Made by a program: the position numbers and the translations under genes | Shown: positions 1 through 62,830 of the stretch, piece by piece | How the letters are laid out: every line of letters starts with the position of its first letter | How positions within the stretch are numbered: position 1 is the first letter of the stretch | Assembly (NCBI GenBank): GCA_911728435.2 | Contig: OU452199.1 | Coordinates: 22,950,860-23,014,859 of the forward strand | Length of the DNA: 64,000 bases | Direction: 5' to 3' | Source: Apoderus coryli | Lineage: Eukaryota; Arthropoda; Insecta; Coleoptera; Attelabidae | The notes under the pieces: generated by a model | The model's input: the letters and a program-made list of their open reading frames with translations, nothing else | What the model was told of the DNA's origin: nothing | Databases searched by the model: none

Positions 1-209
1 GAAAGCTTGGCTAGTGGAAAAGAGTTATCTCATTTCTGATTAAACCTATGCCCTAATTCCCCAATAAACACACATCATTGTTATATATATATATATATAT
101 AATGTTTGTTTCTCTTGGCCAACTTGTTGAAAATACAACTGATGTAAAAATTTTTTGGGATGTATGGCCAGGTGGGTAATGTATGAGTATAAAAACTCTT
201 TATTACTCT

Positions 210-247
210 GCCAAGCTTTCGAATCTTATTTTATTCTTCCTCAGGGC
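210..247 (-). ncRNA. hammerhead ribozyme motif, mirror copy
   Basis: Reverse-complement copy of the motif at 3985-4022, in the terminal repeat of the inverted left Penelope copy. Core CTGAGGA, GAAT/ATTC stem II, GAAA and the GCC/GGC stem I are all preserved. Confidence 0.7.
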
Positions 248-966
248 TACAATACAAAGACACAGTAAATCACCATATAAAAGTTATTACACTTAAAGTT
301 TGTACATATTGTTGTTTTTATTCTTACCTAGGTGGTAATTAAGTTTAACATTCTAAAATATTTCTTAACATCTCTAGAAGCAAGAATACGTTGCTACCAT
401 TGAAAGAAATTGATAGCAAGACTTTTGTTTTAATTTGGATATGGTTTATTTACATTAAAAGTTAGGTTAACGCAGTTGCAAGTCTTCGTTTATTTTATTT
501 ATATTATTAGTAAATATTGTTAATTTGATAGCTATCTCTATAACCAGCGAACGCAGATGAAATTGTTGTCTATGGATGCGGATACTTTTGCTCAAAACAA
601 AAACCCCAGGAACCAGACAACCCTGTCACAATTGTCTAATTCCTCAGAGGAAAAAACATCGACATGACAAAGGATCAATTGTATTGTCTGATACTTGCCA
701 CCGATATCAAACAAATATAAAAAAAATTGTTGTAGGGATATATTATTAGGGAGCGATAAAAGAAGCTAAAAACTGTCACTAATCAGCCTCAAGATCAACC
801 ACCCAAATGGACAAGCAACGATGAAATCTTCCACAAAACAGTCTCGCGGCATTTGCCACTAATACCACGCAACGTTGTTATTTAATAGCAGTTGCTGTCA
901 CCAACTGCCAGAGAGCCCAGATGCAGAAGAGCTCCACCGCCAGCTCGACCTAAATATCCCTGGCTG

Positions 967-1945
967 TTAGTCGTCCAGAGATGATCCCGAGCTGTCAAAC
1001 GTCAAGGCCTCAGTCCTGCTGTTTATGGTAAGTAGATACGAATAAAATATACTGGCTTCGTCCACATCTCTTCTCTTGTTTAATACCTTGTTCCCTTGAT
1101 TGGTCTCAATCATTTCCAAGAATAAGCGTTTTTTAGTATTTTTTTCCTTGTGTAGGATTTTGGTGTCTTCATACTTAGGGACATGACCTGTGTCCATAAA
1201 ATGCTCAGCAAGTGCACAGCTTGGTTTGTGTAATCTGCAATCACTCTTGTGCGATGTTAGGCGGTCTTTTAAAATTCGTGAGGTCTGGCCTATATACGAC
1301 TGATCGCAAGAGGAACATGGTATTGAGTACACAACATCGCTGGATTTCATTATCTCCGTTTTATCTTTCAAGTTGTTGTATAAGTTCCCTATGGTTTTGG
1401 TGAATTTTTGAGCAATTTTAATAGTGGGGAAATTTTTGAATACTTTAATAATCTTTTGCGATACTTGGGGAATTGCCGGAATGGAGTAATAGTACGACTG
1501 CAAAGGTTGTCTTTCATTGTCCATGCATTCATCACGGTCCACTACTCTAGAGCTGGTGTTGTATATTAGGTGTTTTAGTAACTTCTTTGGATATGAATTA
1601 TCTACCAGTAGATTGAATAGTAACTCTTTGTTTTTTTTGTAATAGAGAAGGATGACAAATTTGTTCTATTCTACGTTTTAGTCCAAGTACTAGGTTTATC
1701 TTCATTTTTTCAGTGTGATAAGAATTGTAGTTCATGTATCGCCCAGAGTCGGTTGGTTTTCTATACCAGTCTAGTATGATTTGATTTTGTGGGTTTCTAA
1801 TTACCTTTGTATCTAGAAATGGAACACTATTATCTTTTTCCTTTTCCATTGTGAATTGAATATTTTCGTTGTAGTTGTTGAAAGGGAGTAAAATTTCGTC
1901 TATTTTGCTTGAGGGTACCGCACATATTAAGTCATCGACAAATTT
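967..1945 (-). pseudogene. Penelope RT C-terminus plus GIY-YIG endonuclease, frameshifted left copy
   Basis: Minus-strand homologue of the right-copy gene. The C-terminal piece (967-1542) contains the GIY-YIG-type endonuclease with Cys pair CSSC and the YIGQTSR motif. The upstream RT piece reads from about 1945 to 1600 and begins at the FVDD catalytic motif. The two pieces are out of frame because of a T-run near 1630-1637, one base longer than the matching A-run of the right copy at about 2591-2597. It is therefore a dead duplicate of the 1946-3262 gene. Confidence 0.85.
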
Positions 1946-3262
1946 CTGTTCATCAATGACAAACAACTTCCGGAAAGTTATGTATTGATTAGCCTGGATG
2001 TAGTATCTCTGTACAGTAACATCCCAATACAACTAGTAAAAAATAATATCGACAAAAGATGGGAGGATATCTCCAATTTCACATCCATACCAAAAACGGA
2101 ATTTATGGAAATTATTGAGTTTATTTTTAACAATACCTTTTTCAGCTTCAATAATACTTACTACAAACAAATTTTCGGAACTCCAATGGGAGCAACAATC
2201 TCCCCTATTGTAGCACAATTGGTTATGGATGACTTATTGGATGATAGAATTCCAAGACTCAGTTTTGCAATTCCCTTTATAAAGAAATTTGTCGATGACT
2301 TAATATGTGCGGTACCCTCAAGCAAAATAGACGAAATTTTACTCACTTTCAACAACTACAACGAAAATATTCAATTCACAATGGAAAAAGAAAAAGATAA
2401 TAGTATTCCATTTCTAGATACAAAGGTAATTAGAAACCCACAAAATCCAATCATACTAGACTGGTATAGAAAACCAACCGACTCTGGGCGATACATGAAC
2501 TACAATTCTTATCACACTGAAAAAATGAAGATAAACCTAGTACTTGGACTAAAACGTAGAATAGAACAAATTTGTCATCCTTCTCTATTACAAAAAAACA
2601 AAGAGTTACTATTCAATCTACTGGTAGATAATTCATATCCAAAGAAGTTACTAAAACACCTAATATACAACACCAGCTCTAGAGTAGTGGACCGTGATGA
2701 ATGCATGGACAATGAAAGACAACCTTTGCAGTCGTACTATTACTCCATTCCGGCAATTCCCCAAGTATCGCAAAAGATTATTAAAGTATTCAAAAATTTC
2801 CCCACTATTAAATTTGCTCAAAAATTCACCAAAACCATAGGGAACTTATACAACAACTTGAAAGATAAAATGGAGATAATGAAATCCAGCGATGTTGTGT
2901 ACTCAATACCATGTTCCTCTTGCGATCAGTCGTATATAGGCCAGACCTCACGAATTTTAAAAGACCGCCTAACATCGCACAAGAGTGATTGCAGATTACA
3001 CAAACCAAGCTGTGCACTTGCTGAGCATTTTATGGACACAGGTCATGTCCCTAAGTATGAAGACACCAAAATCCTACACAAGGAAAAAAATACTAAAAAA
3101 CGCTTATTCTTGGAAATGATTGAGACCAATCAAGGGAACAAGGTATTAAACAAGAGAAGAGATGTGGACGAAGCCAGTATATTTTATTCGTATCTACTTA
3201 CCATAAACAGCAGGACTGAGGCCTTGACGTTTGACAGCTCGGGATCATCTCTGGATGACTAA
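1946..3262 (+). CDS. Penelope-like reverse transcriptase with GIY-YIG endonuclease, 5'-truncated
   Basis: An open frame runs from the inverted junction at about 1946 to the stop at 3262 with no interruption, and no ATG marks a natural start. In order it contains the RT palm motif SLDVVSLYSN (near 1990), the GTPMGATISP motif (near 2178), the catalytic FVDD (near 2288) and a long linker. The GIY-YIG domain follows, with the CSSC pair and YIGQTSRILKDR near 2915-2965. This order is diagnostic of Penelope-like retroelements, which reverse-transcribe their RNA at a chromosomal nick. The region before the RT palm is missing, so the protein is probably inactive although the frame is intact. Confidence 0.9.
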   Translation: MFINDKQLPESYVLISLDVVSLYSNIPIQLVKNNIDKRWEDISNFTSIPKTEFMEIIEFIFNNTFFSFNNTYYKQIFGTPMGATISPIVAQLVMDDLLDDRIPRLSFAIPFIKKFVDDLICAVPSSKIDEILLTFNNYNENIQFTMEKEKDNSIPFLDTKVIRNPQNPIILDWYRKPTDSGRYMNYNSYHTEKMKINLVLGLKRRIEQICHPSLLQKNKELLFNLLVDNSYPKKLLKHLIYNTSSRVVDRDECMDNERQPLQSYYYSIPAIPQVSQKIIKVFKNFPTIKFAQKFTKTIGNLYNNLKDKMEIMKSSDVVYSIPCSSCDQSYIGQTSRILKDRLTSHKSDCRLHKPSCALAEHFMDTGHVPKYEDTKILHKEKNTKKRLFLEMIETNQGNKVLNKRRDVDEASIFYSYLLTINSRTEALTFDSSGSSLDD

Positions 3263-3984
3263 CAGCCAGGGATATTTAGGTCGAGCTGGCGGTGGAGCTC
3301 TTCTGCATCTGGGCTCTCTGGCAGTTGGTGACAGCAACTGCTATTAAATAAGAACGTTGCGTGGTATTAGTGGCAAATGCCGCGAGACTGTTTTGTGGAA
3401 GATTTCATCGTTGCTTGTCCATTTGGGTGGTTGATCTTGAGGCTGATTAGTGACAGTTTTTAGCTTCTTTTATCGCTCCCTAATAATATATCCCTTCAAC
3501 AATTTTTTTATATTTGTTTGATATCGGTGGCAAGTATCAGACAATACAATTGATCCTTTGTCATGTCGATGTTTTTTCCTCTGAGGAATTAGACAATTGT
3601 GACAGGGTGTGGTTCCTGGGGTTTTTGTTTTGAGCAAAAGTATCCGCATCCATAGACAACAATTTCATCTACGTTCGCTGGTTATAGAGATAGCTATCAA
3701 ATTAACAATATTTACTAATAATATAAATAAAATAAACGAAGACTTGCAACTGCGTTAACCTAACTTTTAATGTAAATAAACCATATCCAAATTAAAACAA
3801 AAAACAAATGTCTTGCTATTAATTTCTTTCACTGGTAGCAACGTATTCTTGCTTCTAGAGATGTTAAGAAATATTTTAGAATGTTAAACTTAATTACCAC
3901 CTAGGTAAGAATAAAAACAACAATATGTACAAACTTTAAGTGTAATAACTTTTATATGGTGATTTACTGTGTCTTTGTATTGTA

Positions 3985-4022
3985 GCCCTGAGGAAGAATA
4001 AAATAAGATTCGAAAGCTTGGC
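3985..4022 (+). ncRNA. hammerhead ribozyme motif in Penelope terminal repeat
   Basis: The motif reads stem I GCC, core CTGAGGA (fits CUGANGA), stem II GAAT/ATTC around an 8-base loop with one unpaired A before it, then GAAA. A short palindromic stem III (AGCT) precedes the U cleavage site, and stem I closes with GGC. Hammerhead motifs in the terminal repeats of Penelope-like elements are known; the very short stem III is typical of them and may work as a dimer. Activity is inferred from the core only. Confidence 0.7.
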
Positions 4023-4089
4023 AGAGTAATAAAGAGTTTTTATACTACATTACCCACCTGGCCATACATCCCAAAAAATTTGACATCAG

Positions 4090-15972: not shown

Positions 15973-16639
15973 ACATTTTTTAAAATTTGTTTTTTTTTTG
16001 GTTTTCGTAGGAGGTGTAGTATAAGGATAAATTAGTTAATGTATACATATTAGATACAAGTTAAAACGTTGATTGAAATATTTAATAAGATTCGGAACGC
16101 TCGTCTCTTTTTCGTTCTTTGCTCAACTGCACTAGCGCATCTGTGAACGGGCAAACTAAGTTCTTAGTCAAGATGCCTGACTGACGCAACTGTATCGATC
16201 GATCTACTACACTGAAAGTTGGATATTGCGGTACAATAGCAACAGATGGCATAGCGGCGTTCTACCCCATTCGTTCATTTCGTTAATGAGACGTTGCCGT
16301 GAGTAGATTTTTTTCTTTTATTCTCTAAAGATTCTCTAGATTCGTTGACTACTTTTATTAAAAATATCGTTGACTGAAATATTTTCTTTTAATAAATGAG
16401 ATAATATAACATATAAAATCCCTAATATATTTAATATACAATTTCATGCTTAATTTATATGATATTTAATAATATACAAGGGTTTTAAAAGATATAAATG
16501 ACTAGGGAAGTAGGGTTCAAGTCATAAAAAATGTTTACTAACATTTATCGTTGATTGAAATATTTATTTCAAAATAGGTTTGTTTTATCATGCAGTTCAG
16601 AACGATTCTGGAACTAATTTATTATTTGGTCGGTGAAAT

Positions 16640-16670
16640 AGTTGATTGAAATATTTAATTTCAATCAACG
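16640..16670. mobile_element. 31-bp palindromic micro-insertion, family 1
   Basis: Two inverted copies of the 16067-type terminus (GTTGATTGAAAT, ATTTCAATCAAC) meet at a TTAA-type centre. Flanks are GTGAAAT (16633-16639) and GTGAAAG (16671-16677), an almost perfect 7-bp direct repeat. Confidence 0.65.
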
Positions 16671-17103
16671 GTGAAAGTTATACGGGAACATGACCAGTTT
16701 TGGTTTGATCAGTGTGGTGACCATCGCAATATTATTATTAAACAATTAATAAAAATAAAATTATTTAGGGCTGTTAAGCGGGTTAGTTCTAGTAATAATA
16801 AAATTAAAGATAACGAATCAGGTAAACCACATAGGAAAATAAGAATATTACATTAGAGTTTTGACTTATAGGTATATTAGTCATCGGCCAAACTGTTTCT
16901 CATATTATGTTATGCAAATATAGTTGTATTCACGGTTAGATGGAATGGGTTTATTTTTTATTTATTTTCTCAAGTTCCTGTTAAATTTTGGTGTATTGTT
17001 TAATTATTAATAAAAACATACTGAGACTAACAAATAAAAACATATAAAAAAAACTTTCTAAATTACGAGTTTCATTTTTTTTTGTTGGACACTGGAGTCC
17101 ACA

Positions 17104-17411
17104 GGGGTTTACCAACTCAAGTGTAAAGATTGTCCAAAAGTTTATATTGGTCAAACTGGACGCAATTTCAAAACACGTTTGAAAGAACATAAAAATTCAT
17201 ATATCACTAATAATACAAATTCTACTTATTCCGATCATTTCATAGCAGATAACCATAGTTTTAATAGCCAAAAATTTACTTTACTAGAAGCACTAGAAAT
17301 TAACAAATGAAGAAATACAGAAAATCTTTTAAACGACCAAACCAATATAAATAATTCTCCTCTTTTGAAATTGTTTGCCTGTCTTCTACCTTTAAATTTT
17401 ATTTCAATGTA
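17104..17411 (+). pseudogene. Penelope-like GIY-YIG endonuclease remnant
   Basis: The frame reads GVYQLKCKDC, then KVYIGQTGRNFKTRLKEHK, HFIADNHSF and ALEINK, followed by one in-frame TGA (near 17309), and continues to SPLLKLF with a stop at 17411. This is the GIY-YIG module with its Cys pair from a Penelope-like element different from that at 2-3 kb. The RT is absent. It is followed by a 45-bp inverted repeat (17441-17490 and 17556-17605) that may be the 3' structure of that element. Confidence 0.75.
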
Positions 17412-17440
17412 AAACACTGTTATGTTGGTATTTACCACTT

Positions 17441-17605
17441 GAGTTCATTTCTGGGGTTTCCATATATTTTTTTTATACCTTACACTATATTATTACTTTA
17501 CTTACCTGTTTTTACCTAATAGTTTAGAAACCAAACTCCAGGTAAACAAAGTAATATTGTGTAAGGTATACAAAAATATATATGGAAAAACCCAGAAATG
17601 AGCTT
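17441..17605. repeat. inverted repeat downstream of GIY-YIG remnant
   Basis: The segment with TTTCTGGGGTTTCCATATAT (near 17449) reappears inverted near 17580 as ATATATGGAAAAACCCAGAA, with ATACCTTACAC and GTGTAAGGTAT as the inner arms. The hairpin spacer is about 65 bp. Confidence 0.6.
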
Positions 17606-19954
17606 ATGTCAGATATTCTTTTACCATTTTATAAGAAGCTACTGTCTAGCGAAACACGTGTAATGTACATAAATTAAAAATAAAATTAGTGGAAATTAAT
17701 AACTTTAATTTAATATGAATGTCCATGGATAGTTACATAATATCAAGTTTACAGGTTGGGTAGATGGGGGATAGATACTACATAGTTTGTAGGTTACTAA
17801 GATAACGTCCCATATTTCAAAAACCATAAGTTTTTCAACCTATGTTTTTCAAGGTAAACCACCCAAAAATTAGTTATTCCACATTCTGTTAAAGTTCTGA
17901 TGGTAAAACCACGAACTCCCTGTATAGCATACATTTTTTTTCACATTGTTACAGACCATTATAAATCGATCTTTGCCATTGTCTTTTATTAAGAAAACTA
18001 AGATATGTCAAACAATTAGTTCTATAAAAAAATTATTATCTTTTTGCCTTTTAGTAGCCTTCAAGAACACAGAATCACAAAAATTTCCCTGGGGAAATGT
18101 ATCATTTTCTTTCCCCTGCCTTTAGAATAGCCGAAATCTGTTATATTAAAACCCATTTTTGCCTTGTATTTTAGACGTTCTTCCGAACATAGAAAAAAAT
18201 GTATATATAACCTTCGACTTTTTAAGTTTCGGGTTAATTTCTTTTTATTCTCTTCAGATCGCCCATGAGGTTCAATAGGTATATCCTTAGCGAGTCGAAA
18301 TCAATATAAAAAAAATTCTTGTGCATTTCCTATGGTACCATATCCATAGTCAACAATTAACTGAATATTGAGATCTATCAATTAGCTCTAAACATGCCGT
18401 ACAGTTATGTTTACTCTGTGACATACTTGGGAGATAATGCTAACGAGCAAACTTAAAAAGAAACCAAATTTCAGAAATCAAAAATAATATTGTAAGGACG
18501 ACCTGTATATACGCAAATGTATAACTATATTATTTGTTTTATGTATTTAAAATTATTTTACTTGCTATCCTAAACAATTTTTTTTATAACTTGTACGTTG
18601 AATTTAACCGTTGATTGAATATTTAATTTAACATAGGTAATGTATGATTTATATTTTTATGATTTATCGAGGATAAGTAATATTTTTATTAAACCAAATT
18701 ATATATTTAGAGACAATAAATTGCTGGAAACAGTTCCATACAAGAAACGAAAAATTCAAAGACATAATCACTTGATTAATTTCATGCTCTCCTACGTTAA
18801 AACACTTTTACAATGAATAAGCGAACAAAACCGATATTAAATATGTCAATCAACGACAAAACTAAAAACTACCTCCGTTTATTACTACCACTACTGTTGA
18901 ATCGGCAACATCTAGTTTTTCGACGGCGTTTCAATAGATGTTCGATGCTACGACGAAAATATTCTTAGGTATTAATTCGTATAGTCGCCGCAACATATGG
19001 GATGACGCCTGTTACCGGGTAGGTGTTCTCTGGGAGAGGGGTAAGGCGAGCATAGCGGGGCGCATTGTCCTTACCCCGCAAGCGACGACCCCCTCTCGTC
19101 CGGCGTTGCGTATCTTATTAAATATTTCAATCAACGGTTAAAAGCACTAGGAATATACCGCACAATTGTTCTAATTAATAAGTTAATAAGTAAGTATATT
19201 TTTGTTATATTAAAGATTGCAATTAAGCAATAATAATCAAAACAATTAAATGTAATATTTCTTTATTTTACTATGAATAATTAATTATAATCTAACTATG
19301 AAATAGAATAGACTCGTTTTATTTAAATTCAACTCCTCTTCAACTCTAAGTTTATCACAATGGATTTATTTTTTATAAATACATATCGGATAGAGAAAAT
19401 AACATCTAATGTTTGAGCAGATAACATGCATAGTGAAACAAAGTTTACAACTACGGCCGGACAAATTTAGAATTCCATTCTATTCATTGAGAACACTAGA
19501 TTCACCCGAACTCCCTTCACTGAAGACTTTGGGGGCTTTTTAAAGGTTGAGATAATTAAAATTGGTCGGTAATTTTCAATATGTGAACTATCATTGGTTT
19601 TAAAAATAGGACAAACTCTAGACAACTTTCAGGCTACAGAAAATTCTCTCGATTTATTAAATGACCAAAACAACTTGGGATCATTATTAATACTAGCTTC
19701 TGCATGTTGAATATAGCGAGAGTAACCATCCGCATGCTTTTAACACTTTATGACATTGACCCTTCCTCTTAATATACCTTATGATTTCAGAAGTATATCA
19801 TGTTGGATATTTGACCATTTGGGATGGTGCTTGATCGTTCTAGATTTGCAGACGTGGCTTGCCCAATATGCATATGATGGTCAATTACTATTTTCTTAAA
19901 TAATGCTTAGGTGGACCATGTACTGCCATATTATAATATTTTTTTTCCTTCACC

Positions 19955-39363: not shown

Positions 39364-39473
39364 TTTCTTAACTACAACCCAAGGAACCGTAGCGTAGCTT
39401 CCTTATTCTATGCTATAACCACAGCTAATATTAGCTGTACTATAGCTATAACCAACGGTTGAACACAAGTTCA

Positions 39474-40488
39474 GGTAAACATGCAGTATAGTTGTACTAA
39501 ATTATGGTCTGACCGCGCCGCTGCGCAGTCAGACGAATTTTTATGTGAAAAAGTGTCACTACTCTAACGATGTTGCCAGGTTGGTATCTATTCACTATAA
39601 CGACTGATATAATGAATAATACAATTTTATGATATTATAAATTTATACAGTGGATGTAATTATTATATCATTGCTGGGGGTAAAATGCTGAGTATAGAAG
39701 GTTAGGTAGCAGGCAGGGAAGTGTTGTAAGGGTGTAATAGTGATGATCAGGAAGAGTTAGTAAAAGAGGGTGAGTGTAGAAAGCAGGATTGAGATGAAAT
39801 GTAGTAGGCACGTTGTTGTTATATTAGTTCGATAGCAGTCATTATTAGGACAACACATCCCTGCCTGCTACCTAACCTTCCATACTCAGCATTTTACCCT
39901 CAACCTCCTGCAATATTTGTGTGGATTAGTTCGATAGCAGTCATTAGGTAATCATTGCAGGAGGTTGGTGGTAAAATGCTGAGTATCGAAGGTTAGGTAG
40001 CAGGCAGGGATGTGTTGTCCTAATAATGACTGCTATGGAACTAATATAACAACTATCTGCCTACTACATCTCATCTCAATCCAGCTTTCTACACCCACCC
40101 TCCTTTACTAACTCTTCCTGATAATTACTATTACACCCTTACAACACATCCCTGCCTGCTACCTAACCTTCGATACTCAGCATTTTACCACCAACCTCCT
40201 GCAATGATTACCTAATGATGATTGCTATCGAACTAATCCACATAAATATAACAAATAGGTGTATAACCTAGAGTAGCATTTACATTTAACAAAAGATTAA
40301 TGTGTACATTAATCTTTGATTTAACGGTCAAAAATTAAGCGCCAAATATTCAACCGATTCAACATAATATGTGTGTTTTAAACCTGGCAACACCACACTT
40401 CGATTACAATCTGAACTCCCAAAACTCGTCTGACTGCGCAGCGGCGCGGTCAGACCATAATTTAGTACAACTATACTACATGTTTACC
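39474..40488. mobile_element. Merlin-type MITE, 1015 bp
   Basis: Ends GGTAAACATGCAGTATAGTT and inverse, followed by TCTGACCGCGCCGCTGCGCA-type inner repeats, nearly identical to the ends of the transposase-bearing element at 60868-62830. Flanked by CAAGTTCA (39466-39473) and CAAGTGCA (40489-40496), 7 of 8 identical, the 8-bp duplication expected for Merlin. The interior is a set of alternately inverted copies of GGTTAGGTAGCAGGCAGGG (near 39700, 39868, 39990, 40155). There is no coding capacity. Confidence 0.85.
40291..40318. mobile_element. 28-bp palindromic micro-insertion, family 2
   Basis: AAAAGATTAATGTG meets its inverse TACATTAATCTTTG. Flanked by ATTTAAC at 40284-40290 and 40319-40325. 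The homologous positions in two related Merlin-type elements (47207-47213 and 61031-61037, read inverted) have ATTTAAC once and no insert. Confidence 0.9.
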
Positions 40489-43863: not shown

Positions 43864-44151
43864 ACAAAATGGTATGTAATTCAAAAATCATTTATATCAT
43901 TTGCAAGTCTTCATTGGTTATTTTTCATTACCTAAATTTATTAGGATCGGTTAGAGTTACCTTTATCGTGTTTACTTTGTTAATAAATATGGTTTTTTGG
44001 ATTTCAAATGTTTGTATTATTTCCAGTCTTTTATTTTTGCTATTCGTTCTTTGATCCCAATATCCCAATTTTCGTTGACTTAATTCTAAACATAGTTCCC
44101 GGTTTATACAACATAAGCATAATTATAAATTAGTTTAAACAATAATATGAG

Positions 44152-44177
44152 CAAAGATTAATGTACATTAATCTTTG
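44152..44177. mobile_element. 26-bp perfect palindromic micro-insertion, family 2
   Basis: CAAAGATTAATGT followed directly by its inverse. Perfect 7-bp direct repeats ATATGAG at 44145-44151 and 44178-44184. Confidence 0.85.
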
Positions 44178-44476
44178 ATATGAGTAAGCGTATGTAACTA
44201 CTTTTGGGTTTTAGAGAAAGAAAGTACAGCTGAATGTCTTAATTCAAAATTTGCGTTTTGTATGATATTGCACATTATAATTTGTTAATTTACACCTACA
44301 ATCTAGGTATATTAGCGTTATGACTGACTCTTGTAACGGTGCCTATGATTAGAATGCGTTCCATTTTTGTGATTATTATGCTGTATAAACCCGGCTTACA
44401 ACAAGCAGACGCGCGCACGATGATTGTCATTGGCTAGGTATAAAAGGAAATTAACGTATGCTTCCAATACGTATTA

Positions 44477-46317: not shown

Positions 46318-47042
46318 TATTATTATCAGAGATATGAACTATCTCTGGATATTATTAATATAAGATTGTTATGAGGATTGTTCCCACAAGGGTCAGAAAT
46401 AGTCTGGATTCTGAGCATAACGTTGTTGACGTGCGGTTTGCGCAGAATCCTGACTGATTCTGACGCTTGTGAAAACAAACCTATAATGTATTTCTATTTG
46501 TTACATTTCTATTACTTTTTAAACATATATCTATTACGTTTATTACAATTAGACACCATTTTCTATTACTAAAAAATTTTTGCCAGCAACAACACTGCGT
46601 ATTGTAGGCACAGAATAACCAACAATCAGAATACCGACACAGAGCCCCTGCCATTGAAAATGCAGTATGAACAGACGCTATTTTGCGGGCATAGAGCTCA
46701 GGAGCATACTCGGCTACAGCTGACAGGGCCGGCCTTAGGGTGTTTAATAAAATAAATATTAGTACACATTTTTATTACTTTTTTATTGATTTTTCCATAT
46801 AGTTAATTTATTTCGGTTGACTGATGTTTTGAAATTTTTATTTATACATTTTATTGTGAAAAATAGTTTCATTCTTAAATACAATTTAATAACATATTGG
46901 ATCGGAAAACTTTGTCATGGATGGTGAAAAGGAACATTTTTACATATATCATATAAAACGCGCATGCCACTGCCTAGTGCACTTCCCAAAATTTTTATGG
47001 GTAATCTTCACAGATCTAGGAAGGAGGATTTTCTAGATCTGT
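46318..47042. other. no recognised gene
   Basis: No supported feature; a 13-bp inverted pair around AGATCT (47012-47042) adjoins the next MITE. Confidence 0.4.
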
Positions 47043-48144
47043 GGTAATCTTGCAGTATACATGTGTGAAATTATGGTCTGACCGCGCTGCTGCGCAGTCA
47101 GACGAATTTTGGGAGTTGAGATTGTAATCGAAGTGTGGTGTTGCCAGGTTTAAAACACACATAAGTATGTTGAAACGGTTAAATATTTGGCCCTTAATTT
47201 TTGGCCGTTAAATGTAAATGCTACTCTAGGTTATACACATTTGTTGTATTTATGTGATTTATATTTGTGTGAATTAGTCCGATAACAGTCATCGTTAGGT
47301 AATCATTGCAGCAGTTTGGGGGTAAAATGCTGAATATGGAAGGTTAGGTAGCAGGCAGGGATGTGTTGTAAGGGTGTAATAGTAATTATCAGGAAGAGTT
47401 AGTAAAGGGGTGGGTGTAGAACGCTGGATTGAGATGAGATGTAGTAGGCATATAGTTGTTAGTTCGATAGCAGTCATTGTTAGTACAACACATCCGTGCC
47501 TGCTACCTAACCTTCCATACTCAGCATATTACCCCCAACCTCATGCAATGATTACCTAACAAAGTCTGCTATCGAACAATTATGTGCCTACTACATTTCA
47601 TCTCGATCCTGCTTCCTACACACACCATCCTTTACTAACTCTTCCTGACCATCACTATTACACCCTTACAACACATCCCTGCCTGCTACCTAACCTTCCA
47701 TACTCAGCATTTTACTTCCAACCCCTTGCAATGTAATAATTTCATCCACTGTATAAATTTATAATATAATAAAATTGTATTATTTGTTCTATTAGTCTAT
47801 AATATAATATAATATAATATATACATTAAAATGCCAACGTGCCGAGCCAATCAGAGCATTTGGGGCGGGACTTTCCTTGGCGCGCTTTTCAATTTGAATT
47901 TAACCGCTATTCAACTTATTTTGAAACTGAAATTTAGTCGATATTTAATTGGAATGAGTTTTTCAGTAAAATAATTTAAGTACGACACCAAACAAATCTA
48001 ATATAATATTATACAAGTCACAATAAGAAAAAAATAGTATGTAATGTGAAAAAGTGATACAATTAAAAGGAAAATATCTAAATTGAAATAGTACGCAATC
48101 TGAAAAAGTAATATTAGATTTGTTTGGTGTTGAACCTTATAATA

Positions 48145-51979: not shown

Positions 51980-52504
51980 TATTTTTATAACTAAAATCTA
52001 AAATACACTAAACACTATAGGCAAAGCTGAAAGTCAGTCTATAACAATTAAAACAATCCAACAATATTACGAAACCAAAGATTAATCTACACAATAGATA
52101 GTCAGCCCAATGCATTAAAATCAGAACATCTCTAAGTATGCCTGCCACTACGTGGCGTAGACTAGCGTGTAAAGCATAGAGCAGTATTGTCACAGCCAGA
52201 AACCGTTTTGTAGTTTATTAATATCAAAAACAAAACGCAACGTATAACAATTATTTAGATCATTTGCAACAGATATGCACCGGCAATGCTGTATTGTCAG
52301 AGAGAGAAATTGATGAAATTCTGTATTAATCTGGAGGGGATACGCAGGGAGGGTAGAAAAAAAAACAAGCGAATGTGGTGTGTGTCGTGCTGTTGCCAAT
52401 TCGTCGGTAAAAGAAACACACAGGGTGATTTATTACAAGTACAGTATTGAAATAAAAGCCTAATCTCTATGAATTAAATTTAATATAATAATATTTAATC
52501 CATG

Positions 52505-52546
52505 TCATACATGTTTCAAGACTAGACCAGTCCCATGATCAGTGGC
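52505..52546 (-). ncRNA. hammerhead ribozyme remnant, ACATGT class
   Basis: CTGATCA replaces CTGANGA (the invariant G8 is lost), stem II GGGACT/AGTCTT is still paired (two wobbles), then GAAA and CATGTA. Probably inactive. Confidence 0.5.
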
Positions 52547-54489
52547 GAACAATCGTTAAATGAAAAGCTTTTAGATAGAAACATACTTTTGACTAAATAT
52601 TTCACGTAGACAATGTGGCAAAGATGTAACAAGATTGTTGTAGATCTTATAATACCTATAATAAAAAAATTATCAGTGCTACCTATATTATATTAGGTAT
52701 ACCTATTATAATAGTATAGGTACTTAAATTTTACTTCTTTTTAATGTTTCTTCGGGTAAATAATAAGTTCGGTAGGAATAGGGCTTTGGGTATGAAACAA
52801 AAAAGATAGAAAATAGAAATTTGATATAGGGGTAGTTCTAAGCATTTACAAGTTTGTGACGTGTAGCGATTTTCGATGCCGCCCCCGGAGGTATACATGA
52901 GGGCGGCGCAATGCCGTTTTAAATATCTCGTTTCGCTTCCTTGGAAAATAAAAAATTATAACTGATAACTGAAACTTAGTACTTAATACGTGGGCGTAAG
53001 AGGTAAGCTCACTTCACAGGTCTCTATTAATGAAAGAAAGTTAACATTTTGAGCATCTGCGTAAAATTAAATGTATCCGTTTGGTGGGTAGTTTTGATTA
53101 CAATAAGTCGGTGCCAAGCCCAAGCCCGAAACAAAATAAATCTATATTTACCTACTACCTATTTGGCTTGGTACCGACTATTATGTGCATTGTTGTCTTT
53201 TGAATGATATTTGTATTTTGTTATTTTTCGTATTTTTTATTAGTTCTTTTGACAGCTCTGGTGTCATCAATACACCTGTATCCCGAATTGCACCAAATTG
53301 CGATGCTATTGAACAAGCATATAATCCTAAATATAATATTCTTTTTGAACTACCTGTATCTCGAAAACCAAGCCGTAGCGGACCCATGTACATATGAAAT
53401 TTGTATCTTAAAATTAGTCAAAGAATCACCCTTTAAAGTTTGTACAAGTACTTATGCAACACCCTGTATACATAGATACTTTGATTTGCAATTTGCAAAT
53501 CTGTCAAACTAGGTAATGCTGTTTTTTTTTATTTACTTTCAAATATGGTGTTATGTAATTGTAATCAAATTAAATGTTTGGGGATGATATTTACGAGTTT
53601 TATTTTTTTATATAGAGAAACTGTTATTCAGTTTTTAAGGATCAATCTGAAGCAGACGATTGTACTTGTTAAAACATGAAAAAAGTTATTGTCGTGATAC
53701 TTTTAACACCCTGTTGGTGGGTTTTTAAAGCTTTTTACGAAACGTGTTAACAATACAATCTACATAAATCGTTAGTTTTTTAAAGTTTTATGATCATTGC
53801 ACAAAAACCAATATTAGGGAGACTGTAAGTTTTTTTTCAATTCGGCGTTGCAGAATTTGAACCTAATTGTGATAATTGTGTTATTTTACTAGTATAGATA
53901 TTTTTGAGTAAATTAATTCGGTTATAATCGATGAGTAGAATCTTTGGAGTAAAATACATTTCACAAAAACCCTGAACCATATTTCTCAATAGATTTAAAT
54001 TTTCATTAAAAACAGATTAAAAATTCTAATTTTTTACATCTTGCATTTCGAAACCGTATTTTTTTAAATAATTATTGTCATGCTGGAAATTTCAAACCTT
54101 ATTTACTTCAGCAACTTGTAAAAAGCACAGCCTTTTTAATATTAACATTTCTTAAAATCGATATTACGCGATAACGATGACTTTCTATCAATATCACAGA
54201 AGGATACATTTATTACGTATATAATTTGTTAGATTTTACATCTCCGAATTGAAACACACGCAAAAAATGTGCATAAAAAAGTTAGGGTAGCATTTCACGC
54301 CTGTATGCCCCTTTAATTTACCCGCCTCTGATATTTATTTTTTCATAATGTTAACGACAAGTTGAATCTGCTGTTTGAGTTTGATCCTTAAAACTGAATC
54401 AGGTAATAACCGGAAGTCCTATCTATAACGCCAAATTTCGTTAATTTAAATATAACTTTTTGATGCATCCTTATATCCGAAATTTAAAA

Positions 54490-54525
54490 TTAAATGACTA
54501 AAATAATATTATTTTAGTCATTTAA
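54490..54525. repeat. 36-bp perfect palindrome
   Basis: TTAAATGACTAAAATAAT and its inverse without spacer. The 10-mer ATTTAAAATT occurs on both sides, overlapping the palindrome ends, so it could be another micro-insertion; the AT-richness makes the boundaries ambiguous. Confidence 0.5.
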
Positions 54526-55015
54526 AATTATTGTCTAAAACATTTAATAAACCAGCCCTGTATATTTATACTATTATAGTAATTTCTTTTATTTTCGTCC
54601 ATACACATTAATCTTTGCGTAGATAGGTATACGTATACCATATAATTTTAAACAAAAAACACTGCTGCACAGTAGTACATATATGATACCTATAATATAA
54701 AAACAAACTCCCACCTCGTAGGGGAAAGTATACTCGTCCTTGTCTAACATTGCCCATATGATTATTTTATTTCAACACAATACATATAACGCCATCTACA
54801 ATTTCCATAATTTCCATGGTTGCATGTTTTTCTAATAGATGTAGCTCGTGTCGAGACAGTTTCAATTTTTGTTTTACTTCCCATATACGCTGACTATCTA
54901 TTGTGTAGATTAATCTTTGACGAAACTATAAACATTCACTAATATTACAACACCACAATATAACATGTACAAATATTGTGCGCCACTACTGTGCGAGACG
55001 AAGCGAGAAATAGTA

Positions 55016-56640: not shown

Positions 56641-56723
56641 AACCACAGAATAAGGAACCGTAGCGTAGGTTCCGTATTCTATGCTATAACCACAGCTAAT
56701 ATTCGCTGTGCTATAACTATAAC

Positions 56724-56755
56724 CGTTGATTGAAATATTTAATTTTCAATCAACG
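56724..56755. mobile_element. 32-bp palindromic micro-insertion, family 1
   Basis: CGTTGATTGAAATATTTAAT followed by TTTCAATCAACG. Perfect 7-bp direct repeat CTATAAC at 56717-56723 and 56756-56762. The paralogous stretch near 39440 (AGCTATAACCAACGG) has no insert. Confidence 0.88.
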
Positions 56756-57817
56756 CTATAACCAACGGTAGAACCCACGTTTATGCAATATAAATATAGA
56801 CTTTGCTAGAATTAAACACAAAATATTAAATAACAAATACTTAATGTCTGCATATCTACACACCAATGGCATTTATGTTTAAAAGGAAACAACCTCGACG
56901 CAGATAGAATATTAGCAATGAAAATTGCTCTTTTAAACAAAATAAATAATAATATGATTGGTATATATGAGAAAAATTGAGCGCCAAACGAAAATAATAA
57001 CATCAGGTGAATTGCCCGCATCCCGCATGCGCATAATATACAGATTTTGATTGGCTCGGCACGTTGGCATTTTAATGTATGCTAATTATACCGCATGCGC
57101 ATAATATACAGATTTTGATTGGCTCGGCACGTTGGCTTTTTAATGTATGCTAACACCCGTTACCTCGACGGATGCGTGTACTAGGAGAAAAATAAATAGG
57201 GAGTTAAGGCAAAGCCAGTGATGAATACGTAAACGTATCTTTTGACATCTACGTATGCGCTCTTTAAATTTATGATACGTTTAACGATACGAAGGCCGTA
57301 ATAGTATATTAAGTATAAAGGGCGGTAAAGCATTCGTTGCAGCCCGCCGCTGTATAGACGCACGAGTGAGCGAAGCGAGCGAGGGCAGCTATACAGCGAA
57401 GGGCTGCAGCGGCTTTACCGCCAGTGGTGCTTACAACTGTTTTTCGCCTGCCTCTTCATGCTACAATATTAAACCAAAAGAACTTTATTTTAATAATTAA
57501 TTATTTCTGTTATGAACTGACAGTTTTTGACAGTAATTAATGGGAGTATTTTTTTGACGTACATGATAATAGGCGTTATCAAAGACCTTAGTAACACAGG
57601 AGACAAAATATTTCATTGATAACGTGCTTTCAAACACGAGCCAACATTACTTGTAAACAAGTAATGTGTAAGAGAGAGAAAGACTTATCCTTGTCGCCTT
57701 CAAGTTGCTCATTGGCAACGTTGTAATCTCCGCTATGCGTTCTGCAGCCAGTGGCGTACTGATCGCTGACTGCTTTTGAACTATGTATACAATACATAAT
57801 ATATAATTAATAGCCTA

Positions 57818-58215
57818 CATTAAAAAGCCAACGTGCCGAGAATTTAACCGCTATTCAACTTATTTTGAAACTGAAATTTAGTCGATATTTAATTGGAATG
57901 AGTTTTTCAGTAAAATAATTTAAATATTAGTATGTATTCGCTAAGAAAGTCTGTTAATCTTTCTTTGTAGTAGGTAGGTATTTCTTGATATAGCTGAAAA
58001 ACCTTCATTTCGTATATCGAAAAAACGATACTTAAATTAATATATTTATGTATAATTTGAAGATAATCTAATTTTAAAATCATTTTATGCATTACAAATA
58101 GGAAGTCAGGAAATAAAAAAAGACACATTATTCTCAATAGTTTATTTTTAGCTACATATATTAAATTATACACAATGATAATACATAATAATTACTATGA
58201 ACATACAAATTAATT
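57818..58215. repeat. MULE-like element fragment (38021 family)
   Basis: TACATTAAAAAGCCAACGTG followed by AATTTAACCGCTATTCAAC and the rest of the family's left half, ending where LINE sequence begins. The GAGCCAATC...GCGCGC part is deleted. Confidence 0.65.
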
Positions 58216-58246
58216 ATGTTTTTGCAGACTTTATGCAGTTTCTGTA

Positions 58247-58590
58247 TCACTTTTTAATAAGTATGAAGTCTATTTGATTGCGAATAATTCTCTCAGGGGT
58301 ATGGGCGCTAGAGGTCCACGTATAGAGCCTTCTATTTGGAAGTTTAAAAAAGGTGTTTGAGACAATGAAATCATGTTCCTGGCAGAACTGAACTAGCCGG
58401 TCTCCTCTATCGTTTGCTGTACCTAATCCGTATATACCGGTAATATCCTCTCGTGGTGTACTTCCTACTTTGGCATTAAAATCGCCCATGATAAAAGTCA
58501 CCTCTGATTTTTTCGCCAGCTTCACGGTATCTGTGATTTGTTCCTTAAAACTATCAATAGATCTTTTAATGATTTTAAGTCGTCTAACTT
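58247..58590 (-). pseudogene. RTE-type LINE endonuclease fragment
   Basis: On minus: SFKEQITDTVKLAKKSEVTF, then IMGDFNAKVGSTPRED, GLGTANDRGDRLVQFCQEHD, NTFFKLPNRRLYTWTSS and NQIDFILI. This is the C-terminal half of the apurinic-type endonuclease of RTE elements, with the GDFNAKVG and QIDFI motifs intact. It sits downstream of the last THAP exon, truncating that gene. Confidence 0.85.
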
Positions 58591-59983
58591 GATTTTGGCA
58601 CGTTATTTTATTTTTTTAAATTCCTATATTTTTTCTTCTCTTAGTAGGGGTTGAAAAGTCACTACTATCCATATCACCAGGATAACGCCTTTTCCTAAAA
58701 AATATCAAGCCCCTGGTAAATTATACTAAAAAAAGAGCTTTTTATGAACAAATATCAAAATTTCATAACGGTAAAATGTAAATTTGAATAATGTACCAAA
58801 TATACCAACATTTAGCTTCAGCCCCTTTTATATCACCCGCTTCTGAAACATGTTGGTGTAATACCTACCTCTTTTTACTTCCAATTTTTGCACTAGCTAC
58901 AGGGGCTTCAATTATATCAGAATGGGATTCTCCTGTTTCTGATGCAGTTTCTGTCACAGAACTGGTTGAACCCTTGTTGGCTTCTAATGAAACTGGCTGT
59001 GGAGGTGCCAGGTATAGATTCAACAATTATACTTTCAGACCTAAAATATGTATTAATTCAATATATCAAAATATTAAAAAACCTTTCTAAAGGATACCTT
59101 TTGATTAGGGACCCCATATTAGCGGTTGAAACAGTGGACTCTATAATAGTTTTTTCTAATAGCTGAGCAATCCTAAAAATGGATATAAATGCGGTTAATG
59201 CACATACCTACTTAGCTAGTTTAATTTCATCCAAAAATTAATAATAACAGAACTTACTTAGGATATTCTTTCGGTATTGGAGGTGTTCCAAAAACAGATG
59301 AGTCCACAGACCTAACATTTGTGGTTGAGTCAGAGCTAGAAGAATATAAATTATTATTATAATATAATAAATATAATTATAAATATTTTTTACCTAGTGG
59401 ATGCATCATCCAAAAATAAAACACCTTCACACCGTCGAAGATTTGCACCCTTTCTAACGAATCATGCTCCCTTAGATTTCGTTACCAGATCCTCTGGGAA
59501 AAAATGATCCGAGCATAACCATGGATTTTTTGGCAAAAGTGGTCCTTTAGCAATGCCAACTAAAGAAAACCAGAGTTTTCGTTTTTCCGGTTCCTGAGGA
59601 AACCTAATTTAAAAAATACAATATAAGTACCTAATGTAAAAAGGCTATAATCAGCCTTATACTCCAGAGCTAGGGAGGTAATATCCTACGTAGATTTACC
59701 ACTTACTTCTTTAATGCTGCTTTGAATTACTAAACGGTTACATTGTTGGGCGTAAATGAACCAACATTATTTTCAGAAAGTATCTGTTTGCTTTTGTTAC
59801 TAATAATTTAATAGAAATAAAAATTCAAAATGTAACAAATTTATCATATCAAACAAACCCCGCCACTGTGTAAACTAACACTAAACACAAACAAATTTCC
59901 AAACATAACCACACTTACCTGTGAAAAGTTAAATCTGGAAATAAACTATCCACTTTTCCACAAACTACACAACCACGAACCAT
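58560..59983 (-). pseudogene. THAP-domain protein of the P-like element, six exons
   Basis: Exon 1 (59919-59983) starts MVRGCVVCGKV and ends TFH at CACAG|GTAAGT. Exon 2 (59394-59603) reads FPQEPEKRKLWFSLVG and CSDHFFPEDLV, giving the C2CH zinc ligands of a THAP DNA-binding domain; a TGA interrupts it at 59462-59464. Exons 3 (59258-59335), 4 (59098-59172) and 5 (58869-59040, one frameshift) encode a Ser/Thr-rich linker. Exon 6 (from 58694) has KRRYPGDMDSSDFSTPTKRR and a helical tail with QNQVRRLKI, a pattern common after THAP domains in transposase proteins. Exon phases join consistently. The catalytic part is missing. Confidence 0.72.
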
Positions 59984-60482
59984 AGTTATTCAATAAATAT
60001 TTAAAGTTTAAAAAAACACACACAAGAATATCGCAAAACAGGAAAATACTTCAAAAAACGATGGAAAGCGATAATGACATGAGTGTTTCTCAACGTCAAC
60101 GTCGCAAATTATAATTTCATTCATAACGCCGTTATCTGTCGTACAAGAAGCGTAAAGTTGTAAACGATGTTGCCGTAGTGCGCTTTTATTTTACTATGAG
60201 AATAATTCCTAAAATAAAATAATTATCCCGTTTTATACAATTTAATCTTAAAATGAACTAATTTATAACCTAAGTATAGTAATAAAAATTTTTATTAACA
60301 TCCTAGTTACAAATAATTATTTACATCGTTCATTTTTTATTTGTTGTGACAAAAATTTAAAGATATTTCAAATACATTTGTAAGTCTGGCAATGCTTGTA
60401 TTAGGATAAATAAAGGAAGGAACGATGTTTGCTAACCCTGAAAACGTAAACAATGGGGTCTCCTGTATTATTAAGGTCTTTG

Positions 60483-60867
60483 GGCGTTATCCTTTGACAA
60501 ACTCAGATCAGATAAACTTATGTGACAGGCTCACATGGCAATGTGGAGTATTTTAAATGTAGAAAGAAACTGTCAAATTAGTATCTGAGCGTGTACGCTA
60601 TACAAATGTAATTTTAGAATCTTAGGTATATTTCGGTACTAAAATAATAATTATAAAGTGATTACTAATTAATAATGGACAATTTTAAATAATTAAATGA
60701 GTTTAGCGGAATGGCAGACGACTACCTAAGTAAATTTTCTCAATTAATTTGTCAACTTATCCTCTAGATGGAATGCACATTAAGTTAAGTGAGTGAAAAC
60801 TACTGATGTTAACGTTATTATTGGAAATCTAACAGTGCCGCCATCTATGAAAAAAAATTAAAATGAG
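60483..60867. other. no recognised gene
   Basis: Spacer between the P-like and Merlin elements; part of the unknown carrier block. Confidence 0.4.
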
Positions 60868-62830
60868 GGTAATCATGCAGTATAGTTGTACTAAATTATG
60901 GTCTGACCGCGCAGCTGCGCAGTCAGACGAGTTTTGGGAGTTCAGATTGTAATTTGAAGTGCGGTGTTGCAAGGTTTAAAACACACATATTATGTTGAAA
61001 CGGCGGATATTTGGCGCTTAATTTTTGACCGTTAAATGTAAATGCTACTCTAGGTTATATACCTATTTGTTGTATTTATGCGATTTATATTTGTGAGAAA
61101 ACTTGTGTATTTGTGTAAAAAAGTTTATTATTTATAGTTATTTAGCAATTTCATTTAAAATGAATGCTGCAGCAAGACCTCAAGCAATCGTTCGCGATGA
61201 AGAAATCCTCAACGAAGACGACGTTAAAAGAGAAAGCCATCGATATATTACCTTACAGTTTATGGACCTATTAAAGTGGCTAGCAAGAAGAAGATTGATA
61301 AGAAACACATTAATGTGTGATTTGTGTGAGGTAACCCTTTAAATACATTCAATTATCATGTTATTATCAAATATAACCTTTTAGATTCCAATGAAACTAT
61401 GGTCGAATACACAGCGATCCGATGGGGCTTGCCCAAATTGTAGAAAGAGGGTATCGCTGAGGAAAAACTCATTTTTTGACACGAGTAGGTTACCCTTACA
61501 GAAAAATACTTTTAATTCTGTATGGGTGGTCATTGGATTACCCTCAAACTACAATAGCCTATGAAGCAGGCGTAGAAGTGGGACACACTATTGTCGATTG
61601 GTGCAATTTTTCTCGTGATATTTGTGAGCAGGACTTGTTCAATAACCCTTCAGTTATTGGCGGGCTGAACGACGATATGACGGCAAAAGTTGTAGAAATT
61701 GATGAAAGTAAGTTTTTCCATCGGAAGTATCATAGAGGTCATTGGAAGGAGGGACACTGGGTTTTTGGTGGAATAGAGAGAGGTACCGGCAAATGTTTCC
61801 TTGTGGATGTACCGGACCGAACTGAGGCAACATTAAGTGCTATTATTGAACAGTAAATTGCAAATAATATACATAGGTACATTAAAATGCATGTGAAATT
61901 TGGTTGGCTTCTGTAAAAATTTTATCAGAATAATTATTGTTTATTTGCATTTTGCTTTAGTATAAATTGTAAAAATAATTTAATTTGCAATAATTTTGTA
62001 GAGTTCCCCATGGAATGTTGGGTTTTTATTGTGCTATTATTAAACAGTTACAATGTTATTATAGGTATATTATGCCAGGCACAATTATTATGTCTGATGG
62101 TTGGAGAGCGTATTTTAACCTCAATAGAATTCATGGAGGTATATACGAACATCGTGTAATAATTTTTATTTTATTAAAATAATGATTTTTATTTTGCAGC
62201 AAATCATCTGAATAATAGAAAACCAGAAATTATTTGTTATTGTATTTATTTTATTATTATTTAGTTCCCACTATTCTGTAATTTATTAAAAATAAATTTG
62301 GTTCAATATAATATACTTTTATTTTCCTCAAATACATAAATTAGTTCTCCAAACATGTATTTTCTTATAGTTTTGATCCTATTGTCCTATTGAAACAGTT
62401 TAAATATGCATTATAAATCTTGCAATCGTAATTTCCTTTAATATCATATGTATTTCCAACATCACTTTAAGTGTTCGTTTTACGCACGTAACCTTCAGTA
62501 AGTGAGTGAGAGATTACCATGCCACATCACTTCTACTCACATCAGTTTTACTCATCTACTTTAAGAAAAACATTCCAAGTACTGAAATAACCCTATATTT
62601 CGCTTCCCATCGATTTATTAGTAATTACATTAAAAAAATAATGATAATAATTACATCCACTGTATAAATATATCATAAAATTGTATTATTCATTCTATCA
62701 GTCAATATAGTGAATAGATATCAACCTTGCAACATCGCTAGAGTAGTGACACTTGTTCACATAAAATTCGTCTGACTGCGCAGCTGCGCGGTCAGACCAT
62801 AATTTAGTACAACTATACTGCATGATTACC
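60868..62830 (+). mobile_element. Merlin (IS1016/ISXO2-like) DNA transposon, 1963 bp
   Basis: Ends GGTAATCATGCAGTATAGTT and inverse, with the inner GTCTGACCGCGCAGCTGCGC repeat. Flanks AAAATGAG (60860-60867) and TATATGAG (62831-62838) agree at 6 of 8. It encodes a Merlin transposase in exons. The matching ends of the MITEs at 39474-40488 and 47043-51493 make this the likely source of their mobilisation. Confidence 0.85.
61160..62160 (+). pseudogene. Merlin transposase, spliced, frameshifted and 3'-truncated
   Basis: Exon 1 (61160-61330) starts MNAAARPQAIVRDEEILNED and ends LMCDLCE at GTAACC. Exon 2 (61385-61852) begins IPMKLWSNTQRSDGACPNC, a zinc-ribbon Cys pattern (CDLC, CPNC) spanning the splice. 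One extra A near 61502-61506 shifts the frame; it then reads ILYGWSLDYP, the ISXO2 domain with VVEIDESKF (first catalytic Asp) and HWVFGGIERGTGKCFL. Exon 3 (from 62065) has PGTIIMSDGWRAYFNL (second Asp). The last catalytic region (ISXO2 NHS...IES) is missing after 62160. Intron boundaries follow GT/AG and keep phase. Confidence 0.82.

Follow-up and report, generated by a model that had tools for sequence, protein, structure and literature searches.

At positions 40284–40325 of the window (the whole stretch of 64,000 nucleotides of Apoderus coryli DNA that was analysed), a 28-bp near-palindrome lies between two copies of ATTTAAC. A preliminary description of this locus saw the signature of a transposition event, and proposed a transposase able to move, or leave behind, a unit that consists of two transposon termini. 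The locus raises the question of which of the two took place. The evidence points strongly to the second: the palindrome at 40291 is very probably the healed excision site of a DNA transposon of the P superfamily.

The insert at 40284–40325 and its carrier

The two copies of the 7-bp target duplication, read from the sequence, occupy positions 40284–40290 and 40319–40325 (both + strand), and the insert AAAAGATTAATGTGTACATTAATCTTTG lies between them at 40291–40318 (+ strand); the coordinates first reported for this arrangement are exact. The insert is assigned as an excision footprint of the CAAAG family by its junction class and by copies at loci L068 and L097. One end contributes 13 nt to it and the other up to 18 nt, with a 3-bp overlap. 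Its first base is A; the L068 copy has C there.

The footprint is a passenger in a MITE (positions 39474–40488, ends GGTAAACATG, flanks CAAGTTCA and CAAGTGCA), which may be of the Merlin type, the label given in the preliminary description. Merlin elements have an 8–9-bp target duplication and Merlin-type ends. A second copy of the MITE, at L097 on contig 1, has this footprint at the corresponding position (98.6% identity over 349 bp) and displays GGTAAACATG termini and its own 8-bp duplication, CTTACTTG; the match in the window copy is 7/8. The Merlin likeness concerns the carrier only and not the source of the scar. Since the L097 copy has the same footprint together with its own 8-bp duplication, insertion and excision of the transposon most likely occurred in a MITE copy that moved later, with the scar travelling inside. 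The 7-bp target duplication at 40284 is genuine. A MITE copy bearing the scar did move; that the short palindrome itself moved as a unit is not supported.

Two relatives of the MITE in the window are empty at this site, as had been described, with a single ATTTAAC at 47207–47213 and at 61031–61037 (both − strand, GTTAAAT on the + strand). A third copy that spans the site, at L020, is empty as well, with a 7-bp overlap between the two halves of its alignment; each of the three has one ATTTAAC. No allele with the transposon still in place was seen at the 40284 site, and this is counted against excision.

Remnants and long elements in the window

The 40291 insert is not unique, and eight such remnants are listed in the window. 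A CAAAG-family footprint at 44145–44184 is a perfect 26-bp palindrome (44152–44177) between ATATGAG repeats; it sits in a host repeat, and the same scar is present at five other fetched places (a group of six). At CTATAAC repeats there are two further footprints, a likely one of 20 bp (CACAGCTAATATTCGCTGTG, positions 56691–56710, or 56684–56717 with its repeats) and a CGTTG-family one of 32 bp (positions 56724–56755, or 56717–56762 with its repeats). A paralogue at 39420 holds a palindrome resembling the first of these, and the site paralogous to the second (39446–39452) is empty. At L021:3592–3645, footprints of families CCCAGATAAA and CAAAGATTAAT nearly adjoin at CTATAGT repeats. The arrangement recalls the pair at 56684–56762 and suggests that one target was used repeatedly.

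Three damaged or one-sided remnants all lie within a single element (16067–19136, below). These are an old CGTTG-family footprint of 31 bp at 16633–16677 (duplication GTGAAAT/GTGAAAG, 6/7); a one-sided footprint, CGTTGATTGAATATTTA, at 18602–18632 (+ strand, ATTTAAC repeats), in which about 18 nt of one end are retained and the other end is gone; and an asymmetric footprint of 24 bp at 18825–18862 (− strand, ACAAAAC repeats), which retains about 20 nt of one end with a single mismatch. A remnant of a family with an 8-bp duplication, CACAGATCTAGGAAGGAGGATTTTCTAGATCTGTG, is found at 47001–47051 (35 bp at 47009–47043, between GTAATCTT repeats). It sits in another MITE copy, and relatives at 39474 and 60868 are without it. 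The family has CACAGATCTAG ends, and its second member is the 32-bp footprint L021:3534–3565. A palindrome at 54493–54522 with TAAAATTA repeats was left out of the count as AT-rich.

The description of the insert as two transposon termini back to back was right. Long elements of the window are capped by termini identical or closely similar to those of the scars, which argues for excision. The 2,844-bp element at 52076–54919 (52069–54926 with its duplications) has a 31-bp terminal inverted repeat, CAAAGATTAATCTACACAATAGATAGTCAGC, and bears the CAAAGATTAAT termini of the CAAAG family. Its ACGAAAC duplication (52069 and 54920), together with the footprints, gives this family a 7-bp target duplication, in line with the 7 or 8 bp of the P superfamily. 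At the position where the 40291 and 44152 scars read GT, this element reads CT; it is therefore a close relative of their source and not the exact source. The 3,070-bp element at 16067–19136 (16060–19143 with its 7-bp duplication, GTTAAAA) has termini CGTTGATTGAAATATTTAATAAGAT, with CGTTGATTGAAATATTT at both ends. No transposase was recognisable by eye in the stop-to-stop frames of these two elements. Among the loci examined there was likewise no autonomous CAAAG or CGTTG element, one that has CAAAGATTAAT or CGTTGATTGAAA termini and encodes a transposase, which also counts against excision.

Other terminal families and repeats were seen. The 2,903-bp element at 57580–60482 (57572–60490 with its 8-bp duplication GGCGTTAT; termini CAAAGACCTTAGTAAC/CAAAGACCTTAATAAT, ends CAAAGACCTTA) includes a fragment that by eye resembles a LINE endonuclease. 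The terminal family CATTGTCTTT shows three junctions with 7-bp repeats, all different (L005:3005–3031, L022:3725–3744 and L021:4061–4077), the last being imperfect and short. Positions 186–4046 form a giant, near-perfect inverted repeat whose arms are ~99% complementary, and both arms carry reverse-transcriptase/GIY-YIG-like frames; this is perhaps a Penelope-like element in head-to-head copies, the family name being given by eye.

The palindrome class and its 7-bp duplications

The genome (428 Mb in 129 contigs) was searched with the pattern CAAAGATTAATN{0,28}ATTAATCTTTG, which allows up to 28 bases between two 11-mers. It is present at 1,152 places, and one identical 26-mer accounts for 346 of them; the reversed control gave 0 for both. 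This result argues for excision. Scars that are shorter, one-sided or mutated escape the pattern, and long remnants are beyond its reach. A search for the exact 26-mer in IMG/VR gave no match.

The preliminary description had proposed a genome-wide check for flanking 7-bp repeats. For the 26-mer, 45 of 50 listed places (of the 346) were examined; those left out are C5:18449565, 18480050, 18947521, 25357702 and 25761064. There are 39 non-identical flanks, and these show a 7/7 duplication in 24 cases, 6/7 in 13, 5/7 in one and 2/7 in one. A full match in a 6-, 8- or 9-bp register was found in 0 of the 39. Grouping by flank similarity, which collapses copies of the same host repeat, reduces the 45 places to 33 independent sites, with a perfect 7-bp repeat in 21, 6/7 in 11 and 5/7 in one. 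The non-26-mer sample consists of all 34 such sites among the first 50 places listed of the 1,152: 29 have a perfect 7/7 repeat and five have 6/7, and no two share a repeat group. Pooled, the 67 independent sites comprise 50 with a perfect 7-bp repeat, 16 with 6/7 and one with 5/7, so that 66 of 67 match at six or seven positions. The presence of 7-bp duplications at 26-mers and non-26-mers alike also argues for excision. The target sites of the 26-mers are AT-rich, with a preference for T in the second and A in the sixth position.

The 26-mer copy without a repeat (2/7) is at L028 and is a member of the repeat group of the window scar 44152. In addition, L019:5271–5312 is a 42-bp palindrome with CAAAGATTAAT ends whose flanks, judged by eye, are inverted, a 7-bp direct repeat being absent.

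The abundance of the 26-mer is partly due to copying of scars within other repeats, as the reduction from 45 places to 33 sites shows; this is weighed against excision, and because of such copying, and of the scars that the pattern misses, the share of 26-mers (346 of 1,152) does not measure how often repair yields them. Copies of one host repeat differ in what they hold: some, such as L002:1501, contain one of the GTTATGG 26-mers, and L082:61 contains a 35-bp palindrome with a different junction. L082 may record two separate repairs of one insertion, or else an insertion or change that a 26-mer underwent later.

When the window was filtered strictly for palindromes inserted between 7-bp direct repeats, three sites other than 40291 passed, compared with 0 or 1 in each of 20 first-order Markov simulations. 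A mutation of its first base kept the 40291 site out of this set, and a separate scan picked it up. In a wider sample (the fetched loci and the window), compared with three second-order Markov sequences, exact 7-bp repeats were found at 31 palindromes vs. 1, 3 and 4 in the simulated sequences; 26-mers make up 17 of the 31 (16 from loci picked because they contain one), and the remaining 14 are the fairer figure. Repeats of 8 bp gave 9 vs. 0, 1 and 1, those of 5 bp 32 vs. 27, 19 and 19, and those of 9 bp 2 vs. 1, 1 and 1. The picture is blurred by a twofold excess of 6-bp repeats (17 vs. 8, 8 and 6) and by an excess of 10-bp repeats (3 vs. 0, 0 and 0).

Junctions, P transposases and rival explanations

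The nearest parallel is the excision of P{wa} in Drosophila melanogaster, described as the rejoining of 17-nt 3′ overhangs (PMC2895639). Between its two 8-bp duplications, the product described there retains no more than 17 nt of either end; joins are by microhomology (5–10 nt in 29%), blunt, or with a templated insert, and 14 isolates in Table 1 of that paper have CATGATGAAATAAC(AT)GTTATTTCATCATG between the 8-bp duplications. The Apoderus scars share this anatomy of a duplication, two joined ends and a second duplication, which argues for excision. They differ in having a 7-bp duplication and up to 18–19 nt of an end. Moreover, the P{wa} data come from a laboratory assay in Rad51 (spn-A) mutants, in contrast to the natural genome considered here. 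Another known system is Galileo, which like 1360/Hoppel of Drosophila belongs to the P superfamily. Its duplications are given as mostly 7 bp and in a few cases 8 bp, at a palindromic AT-rich target, GTANTAC (PMC4168063); the duplication length and an AT-rich target are shared with the scars, and the typical 7-bp duplication is a further argument for excision of a P-superfamily element. Unlike those of the scars, the ends of Galileo are described as very long and internally repeated, with different terminal sequences, and the word “footprint” is absent from that paper.

P transposases are present in this genome. The Tnp_P_element model has at least 84 matches, and a 717-aa open frame is found in three near-identical loci. 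In one of these, Pfam shows P-type RNase H, GTP-binding insertion and HTH domains; three transposases of the genome outside the CAAAG family have the P-type RNase H and GTP-binding insertion domain. Among the 120 relatives of the 717-aa frame listed (of 307), the named organisms are beetles, ants and a bee, and include Leptinotarsa, Diabrotica and Callosobruchus. Both ends of the element were located in two of the three loci (6,009 bp, duplication CTAGTAG; 6,007 bp, CCCACAC). No ends were found in the first 3.2-kb transposase loci L045–L054, and none that were convincing in L058–L060. The left end CCCAGATAAACAGG and the right end CCCAGATAAAGTAAGTATC differ, so that a footprint of this element can be read by side. 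Such a footprint is L021:3592–3616, where 16 nt of the right end and 11 nt of the left end, with a 2-bp overlap, lie between CTATAGT repeats. This joining of right end to left end, in a genome with P transposases, argues for excision, although it is the single footprint tied to a sequenced P-transposase element, which is counted on the other side; the CAAAG ends are too alike for the two to be distinguished. By analogy with this one footprint, and from anatomy and duplication length, the CAAAG and CGTTG families are assigned to P, and the CAAAG family would presumably use a P transposase.

The failure to find a transposase for the CAAAG family is what speaks for a cut-and-paste transposon outside the P superfamily that leaves about 18 nt and duplicates 7 bp. 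We consider this improbable. A stagger of 17 nt is termed unusually long in a review of the P element (PMC7776569) and is a distinguishing feature of it, the 7-bp duplication and the target preference (T2, A6) resemble Galileo's GTANTAC (PMC4168063), and an element of this genome with a P transposase leaves, at the one L021 site, a footprint of the same kind.

The 34 non-26-mer sites display 20 different junctions, each site with its own 7-bp repeat. In 27 of the 34 the junction is free of filler and needs no more than 19 nt of an end (18 or 19 nt in 15); the other seven have 1–9 filler bases. One side matches the terminal repeat for at least 18 nt in 23 of the 34, and the other side mostly for 11–13 nt. 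Thus both target duplications are kept, the retained length is limited (at most 19 nt, 1–2 over 17) and the junctions vary, all of which argues for excision. Two GT-type overhangs of 17–19 nt share just two stretches of at least 4 nt, TGTACA and ATTAAT. Annealing at TGTACA gives the 26-mer, the commonest product, and annealing at ATTAAT gives a 16-mer, which occurs once (L013) with a perfect duplication; that the two overlaps yield these products is again in favour of excision. Of the few footprints of the CGTTG family that were sampled, none has the junction predicted to be commonest (the 26-mer CGTTGATTGAAATATTTCAATCAACG); to a small extent this speaks against the microhomology prediction for CGTTG, and against excision. 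The detail that would have been expected least is the retained length of 18–19 nt (19–20 nt in the CGTTG family), longer than the 17 nt of Drosophila P; it is also counted against excision.

These junctions bear directly on the suggestion that the 26–28-bp unit is itself mobile, a minimal element of two termini that a P-type transposase could insert. It would account for 346 identical 26-mers, with 7-bp duplications at most of those examined, and for empty sites of the insertion type (47207 and 61031), and the 26-mer subset taken alone would show the uniform interior across differing target duplications that a mini-transposon should have. The class as a whole does not show it: with 20 junctions at 34 sites, as many founding units would be needed. 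The excess of 26-mers is itself predicted by the 6-nt self-complementary overlap and by copying in host repeats, and cuts 17–19 nt inside each end would probably overlap within 26 bp. A mobile unit is therefore very unlikely, and of the two actions proposed for the transposase, leaving the unit behind agrees with an excision anatomy like that of Drosophila P, and moving it does not agree with the variety of junctions. It is just as hard to credit that internal deletions, by abortive gap repair or slippage, reduced resident transposons to their ends, for although defective copies from inefficient gap repair of P elements have been described (PMC4168063), deletions should scatter over the whole element and not stop at 19 nt in all 27 filler-free junctions, and remnants keeping 20–39 nt of one end, which the pattern can reach as it cannot the longer ones, were not seen at the 34 sites.

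The excision of a P-superfamily transposon may be pictured as follows. The transposon would have entered the Merlin-type MITE, with duplication of a 7-bp target. Its transposase would then have excised it with a long stagger, so that the terminal inverted repeats left 3′ single strands of about 17–19 nt on the two flanks, and these flanks would have been rejoined by end joining at short complementary stretches. Such a staggered cut, with joining of the polymerase-theta type, would give the product duplication, end, inverse end, duplication. The MITE copy bearing the scar would have moved afterwards, with the scar as passenger.

Beyond this locus, we put forward tentatively, and with somewhat more doubt than confidence, that a P-type transposase in this genome cuts 18–19 nt inside the ends at a 7-bp insertion spacing, that end joining is a frequent fate of excision, and that the genome is a natural record of P-type breaks, thousands by extrapolation, left by five or more terminal families (CAAAG, CGTTG, CACAGATCTAG, CATTGTCTTT and CCCAGATAAA). 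No genome-wide natural record of P footprints was found in titles and abstract openings of the open-licence literature; one may exist elsewhere.

What appeared to be a transposon smaller than a MITE thus becomes a readable record of transposon excision. For annotation, short terminus-to-terminus palindromes with target duplications may be scars and not elements, and such scars can multiply within other repeats. A P-type family with hundreds of natural end-joining events could offer a way to locate the cuts of the transposase outside the laboratory assays in Drosophila, and to learn which end-joining route mended breaks in the germline.
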